From Micromonospora nigra (GTDB lineage: Bacteria; Actinomycetota; Actinomycetes; Mycobacteriales; Micromonosporaceae), in assembly GCF_900091585.1 (NCBI RefSeq), contig NZ_FMHT01000003.1:186001-250000 (forward strand): 64,000 nucleotides of DNA, written 5' to 3'. A program made the position numbers and the translations under genes. Of the stretch, positions 14,958 through 24,394 are shown one piece after another; position 1 is the stretch's first letter; the number at the start of each line of letters is the position of its first letter. The notes below the pieces were generated by a model. It ran no database searches and was not told the DNA's origin. It saw only the letters and a list, made by a program, of their open reading frames with translations.

Positions 14958-24394
<9,437 letters not shown>

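Follow-up and report, generated by a model that had tools for sequence, protein, structure and literature searches.

The window analysed here is a stretch of 64,000 nucleotides on contig C3 of the Micromonospora nigra genome assembly, which comprises 6.36 Mb in three contigs. Its minus strand carries a series of modular polyketide synthase (PKS) genes, one of which is split between two reading frames (A and B) within its second ketosynthase (KS). The genes and features that matter for this break are the following, ordered along the coding strand:

54683..64000, minus strand: qnmA8-like PKS of two modules (23-24), the second with DH-ER-KR, extending past the window (scanned from 54683 to 63985)
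40468..54636, minus strand: qnmA9-like PKS of three modules (25-27), from its domains and the published table
29465..40423, minus strand: qnmA10-like PKS of two modules with DH (28-29), from its domains and the published table
24440..29428, minus strand: qnmA11-like PKS of one module (30), from its domains and the published table
19188..24394, minus strand: frame A piece of the qnmA12-like gene, with docking region, KS, AT (YASHS), KR, ACP and the N-terminal part of the second KS (Pfam)
19286..19288, minus strand: codon of the presumed active-site cysteine of the second KS (DTAC motif), in frame A
19188..19191, minus strand: C run at the frame break, in the second KS, one base short compared with relatives (sequence and relatives)
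18944..19187, minus strand: out-of-frame tail of frame A, with the stop at its end (sequence)
14958..19187, minus strand: frame B piece, with the remainder of the second KS, AT (HAFHS), PKS_DE, KR, ACP and the C-terminal tail (Pfam)
18762..18884, minus strand: stretch with both presumed catalytic KS histidines, in frame B (HGTGT at 18884-18882, NIGH at 18764-18762)
9443..14935, minus strand: qnmA13-like gene (module 33), the next gene after the broken PKS, with docking-KS-AT-PKS_DE-weak KR-ACP-thioesterase (Pfam)

The PKS genes are bordered downstream by a LuxR-family regulator with an AAA_16 ATPase domain (3121-5943, plus strand), a candidate cluster regulator. A UDPGT/EryCIII-like glycosyltransferase (6089-7465, minus strand) and an ABC transporter ATPase (8310-9344, minus strand) are found near the thioesterase gene.

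The identity of the cluster is indicated by its size and by the arrangement of its genes. A scan with PF00109 places 32 KS copies between C3:200078 and 367613, amounting to ~168 kb of KS-bearing sequence, in keeping with a line of more than 200 kb and about 32-33 extension modules. The final six PKS genes fit the order and domains of qnmA8 to qnmA13, with the thioesterase last and qnmA8 followed as far as the window reaches. By these features the cluster is a match for the quinolidomicin (qnm) cluster published from Micromonospora, and the broken gene corresponds to qnmA12, with modules 31-32. An earlier sequence-only reading had proposed two modules with a thioesterase gene next in line, and the Pfam anatomy agrees. 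The YASHS motif in the first AT is taken to denote methylmalonyl and the HAFHS motif in the second presumably denotes malonyl, in agreement with the ATmm and ATm of the published qnm table. In the living cell, the product of a full reading frame would be a PKS protein carrying the two modules 31 and 32 in the line that makes a quinolidomicin-type giant macrolide, and this qnmA12-like protein would hand its chain on to the protein with module 33 and the thioesterase.

Two long minus-strand frames, 18944-24394 and 14958-20606, meet at the C run. At 19191-19188 the minus strand has the run CCCC, and GGGG comes directly after it at 19187-19184, in accordance with the four G previously reported at 19188-19191. 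Frame A, which opens with the ATG at 24394, keeps the KS sequence intact up to the C run and then turns to nonsense until the stop at 18944; frame B takes up the KS sequence past the run and remains open to 14958. Both frames were found as the sequence-only reading had described them. Its further statement, that restoring one base gives a single protein of 3145 residues, fits the lengths of the two pieces (~1736 and 1409 residues) set beside the single stop-to-stop frames of 3160-3639 codons in relatives with the whole gene. In the PF00109 scan of the whole genome, two of the 65 matches are the two pieces of the broken KS, covering model positions 2-208 and 204-252.

The break was also located by a codon-periodicity Viterbi scan, trained on the M. 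nigra genome, that caught 62 of 70 simulated single-base deletions. One frameshift was called across 200 kb (C3:186001 to 386000), at position 19186 of the window, and at this sensitivity no second one was called in the cluster region. Pieces A and B are otherwise open apart from the one break, and the further lesions in gene or cluster that an old pseudogene should carry were not seen over these 200 kb. The cluster region holds 404 G/C runs of five bases and 68 of six; since no further frameshift was called there, a general collapse of homopolymers is not seen, which counts against an assembly error.

Comparison with relatives shows what the unbroken gene looks like. The named relatives of the broken gene, with 74-91% protein identity, belong to Micromonospora, and M. 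halophytica DSM 43171 ranks first among them. PMC8698034 places a qnm ortholog in 34 of 74 Micromonospora strains. Within a genus set of 160 genomes, whose candidates were scored in part, a long match of at least 80% identity occurs in at least 26 genomes including M. nigra. The break site was read in 24 distinct relatives, drawn from 33 loci with nine duplicate pairs (L174 equals L020); the G169 ortholog was found and left out. The site is in frame in all 24. Five bases separate the matched flanks in 23 of them, as against four in the window, and the remaining one (L173) has four bases by BLAST placement, yet its frame is unbroken. The qnmA12 ortholog of G134 (L191, C24) is likewise in frame at the break site; five frame breaks were called elsewhere in it, all at N stretches, and it was rejected as a second broken relative, these breaks being treated as assembly gaps. 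Comparison of homologous clusters at this position, a check that had been suggested beforehand, thus places the break in M. nigra and in 0 of 24 relatives. Together with the sequence itself, the two PF00109 halves and the Viterbi call, the extra base in relatives upholds the original claim that a one-base deletion splits a two-module PKS gene within a KS.

Similar lesions occur elsewhere in the same assembly. The dnaX gene is generally regarded as essential to the cell. In the M. nigra genome (G000), the sole dnaX match at E 1e-30 or better is an open frame of 278 aa that covers the ATPase part, and domain III has one match, in a frame of 618 aa; all 11 relatives compared have one frame of 859-999 aa. 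The break separates the ATPase core from the lid domain (G000:C3 ~2604174, L099 ~4174), with a one-base gap adjoining a C5 run relative to both relatives aligned, and a break inside the ATPase part is present in none of the 11 relatives. PMC13220808 describes a programmed frameshift in E. coli dnaX and, in B. subtilis, the production of full-length DnaX only. A second possible frame change along dnaX (G000:C3 ~2603476, L099 ~3476) lies in low-complexity sequence that aligns poorly.

In proB, the kinase and PUA domains identified by Pfam lie in different frames (G000:C3 ~2212884, L055 ~12884), and alignment reveals a one-base gap adjoining CCCCCGGGG relative to both relatives aligned. The proB case is made by the Pfam domains and this two-relative alignment. 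Open-frame length was dropped as evidence, the kinase frame being open by chance (1447 codons), and the frame length of relatives was uninformative, with a TAG within the matched stretch in two of them and a stretch that starts upstream of the gene. Lesions similar to the PKS break, of the sort that an assembly prone to indels would contain, are found in both dnaX and proB, two genes that should be needed for life. A PglZ-domain gene (G000:C3 ~4104405, L110 ~4405) has a frame of 618 codons, whereas its nearest relatives have 1027 and 1067, and a second PglZ copy in the M. nigra genome has a frame of 1605 codons; the short gene is either a pseudogene, which may be a true one, or an error.

The density of frameshifts was scanned in 60 stretches (1.2 Mb) of the M. 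nigra genome lying outside the cluster, in the 200-kb cluster region and in two related assemblies, G006 (600 kb) and G019 (400 kb). Seven calls were obtained per 1.2 Mb of the own genome, one in the cluster region, two per 0.6 Mb in G006 and one per 0.4 Mb in G019, so raw density is not clearly different between this assembly and related ones and is not decisive as proof of error. These counts exclude nine own and five control calls that fell at gene ends and were treated as noise, together with calls that a fixed rule assigned to overlapping genes (56 own, 31 control). Inspection of domains attributed all three control calls to adjacent genes, compared with one of the seven own calls (L047); the other six comprise one in proB, two in dnaX, one in the PglZ gene and two (L090) without domain evidence. 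The contrast between own and control calls appears after domain inspection only, and because raw densities are not clearly different, the weight of the argument for error is placed on dnaX and proB.

With the break absent from relatives, and with dnaX and proB carrying similar one-base lesions in this assembly, the frame break is probably a one-base consensus error, i.e. a C lost from the assembly, and an unbroken qnmA12-like gene is probably present in the organism (probability roughly 0.82). Error is more likely than a silenced gene because dnaX, which cells need, is split in a similar way in the same assembly, and the dnaX, proB and PKS lesions would share one cause. The sequence-only reading had offered either an assembly indel or a silenced cluster: the indel is favoured by dnaX, by proB and by published losses of G or C in PacBio data, and the silenced cluster has become the less favoured of the two.

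Confidence in an error is set no higher because nonsynonymous changes are in excess on the window lineage. Between the window and M. halophytica, dN/dS is 0.172 in piece A and 0.317 in piece B, and between M. halophytica and M. rubida 0.234 and 0.361, respectively. When changes were polarised for A, B and the qnmA13-like gene with two outgroups each, the nonsynonymous share was higher on the window lineage than on the M. halophytica lineage in six of six comparisons, each with p between 0.063 and 0.636. Post hoc pools gave p values of 0.205, 0.042, 0.010 and 0.010, three of the four below 0.05, in pools that span cluster genes only. The excess extends to the unbroken qnmA13-like gene. A mild relaxation of selection on the window lineage is possible on these counts.

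This mild excess is compatible with a true and recent one-base deletion in the sequenced strain, in which translation would end ~81 codons past the break. Polymerase slippage at C runs is ordinary, and the PglZ gene, whose frame is also shorter than in relatives (618 aa against 1027 and 1067 aa), is perhaps a true pseudogene. Such a deletion is nevertheless unlikely in view of the similar lesions in dnaX and proB, the single frameshift called in the cluster region and its absence from all 24 relatives. Its consequences would be severe for the pathway. The DTAC cysteine, which is taken to be the active-site residue of the second KS, would be encoded in frame A and parted from the presumed catalytic histidines of HGTGT and NIGH in frame B, leaving neither piece with a full KS catalytic set or a working module 32 KS. 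In-frame synthesis of the AT, KR, ACP and the tail that passes the chain on to the thioesterase protein would be lost; the chain would be expected to stall on the module 31 carrier protein, with no full macrolide released. Biologically, a real lesion would amount to the recent loss of a single antibiotic pathway, an ordinary event.

It is very improbable that the C run is a site of programmed or phase-variable frameshifting by which the giant PKS would be turned on and off. The C-run context is what speaks for it, but the shift is seen in none of the 24 relatives read, for which reason it was rejected, and the run has four bases here and five in most relatives. Runs of four to five bases are short for high-frequency slippage. 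Moreover, the start codons within the first 60 codons of frame B are all GTG, and none of them would restore the KS cysteine. Equally hard to credit is genuine slippage at this run as a reversible means by which strains shut down the 200-kb macrolide line at module 32 and so spare its cost. An assembly or polishing mistake caused by a paralogous KS copy, for which the 32 KS copies of the cluster region offer material, is the least probable explanation and was rejected, since the 200-kb region contains no exact repeat of at least 15 bases that extends across the run, as a collapsed repeat would also need, and the closest paralogs reach 82% identity over ~160 bases or 87% over 106 bases.

The split gene is thus a true observation that most likely reflects an artefact of assembly, and the cluster belongs to a known and widespread family. 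For genome mining, the sequence as printed would have the strain listed as incapable of producing a quinolidomicin-type macrolide, and any predicted structure would lack module 32. The lesions in dnaX and proB suggest care before other frameshifts in this assembly are called pseudogenes.

Errors of this kind have been documented in other systems. A review (PMC4849082) describes PacBio consensus sequences of actinobacteria as prone to missing a G or C in homopolymers, and the legend of its Figure 4 presents PKS genes split in this way in the chaxamycin and anthracimycin clusters, as corrected with Sanger or Illumina data. MinION assemblies with indels overrepresented at homopolymers are described in PMC6325685. 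The chaxamycin and anthracimycin cases, as far as that legend presents them, resemble the present one in that a base is lost at a C run, a PKS module is split and no further lesion is called in the cluster region; they differ in that their errors were proved by Sanger or Illumina data, whereas that in M. nigra is a probable one.

The closest comparison is with the qnm cluster itself, judged here against the table of PMC8698034 rather than the qnm sequence. As far as that table goes, gene order, domains and module types from qnmA8 to qnmA13 are alike in both, including an ATmm module followed by an ATm module and then by the thioesterase gene. The 32 KS copies equal the count given in PMC8698034 for published orthologs without module 4. 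The difference from qnm is that the qnmA12-like gene of the M. nigra assembly is split by one base.
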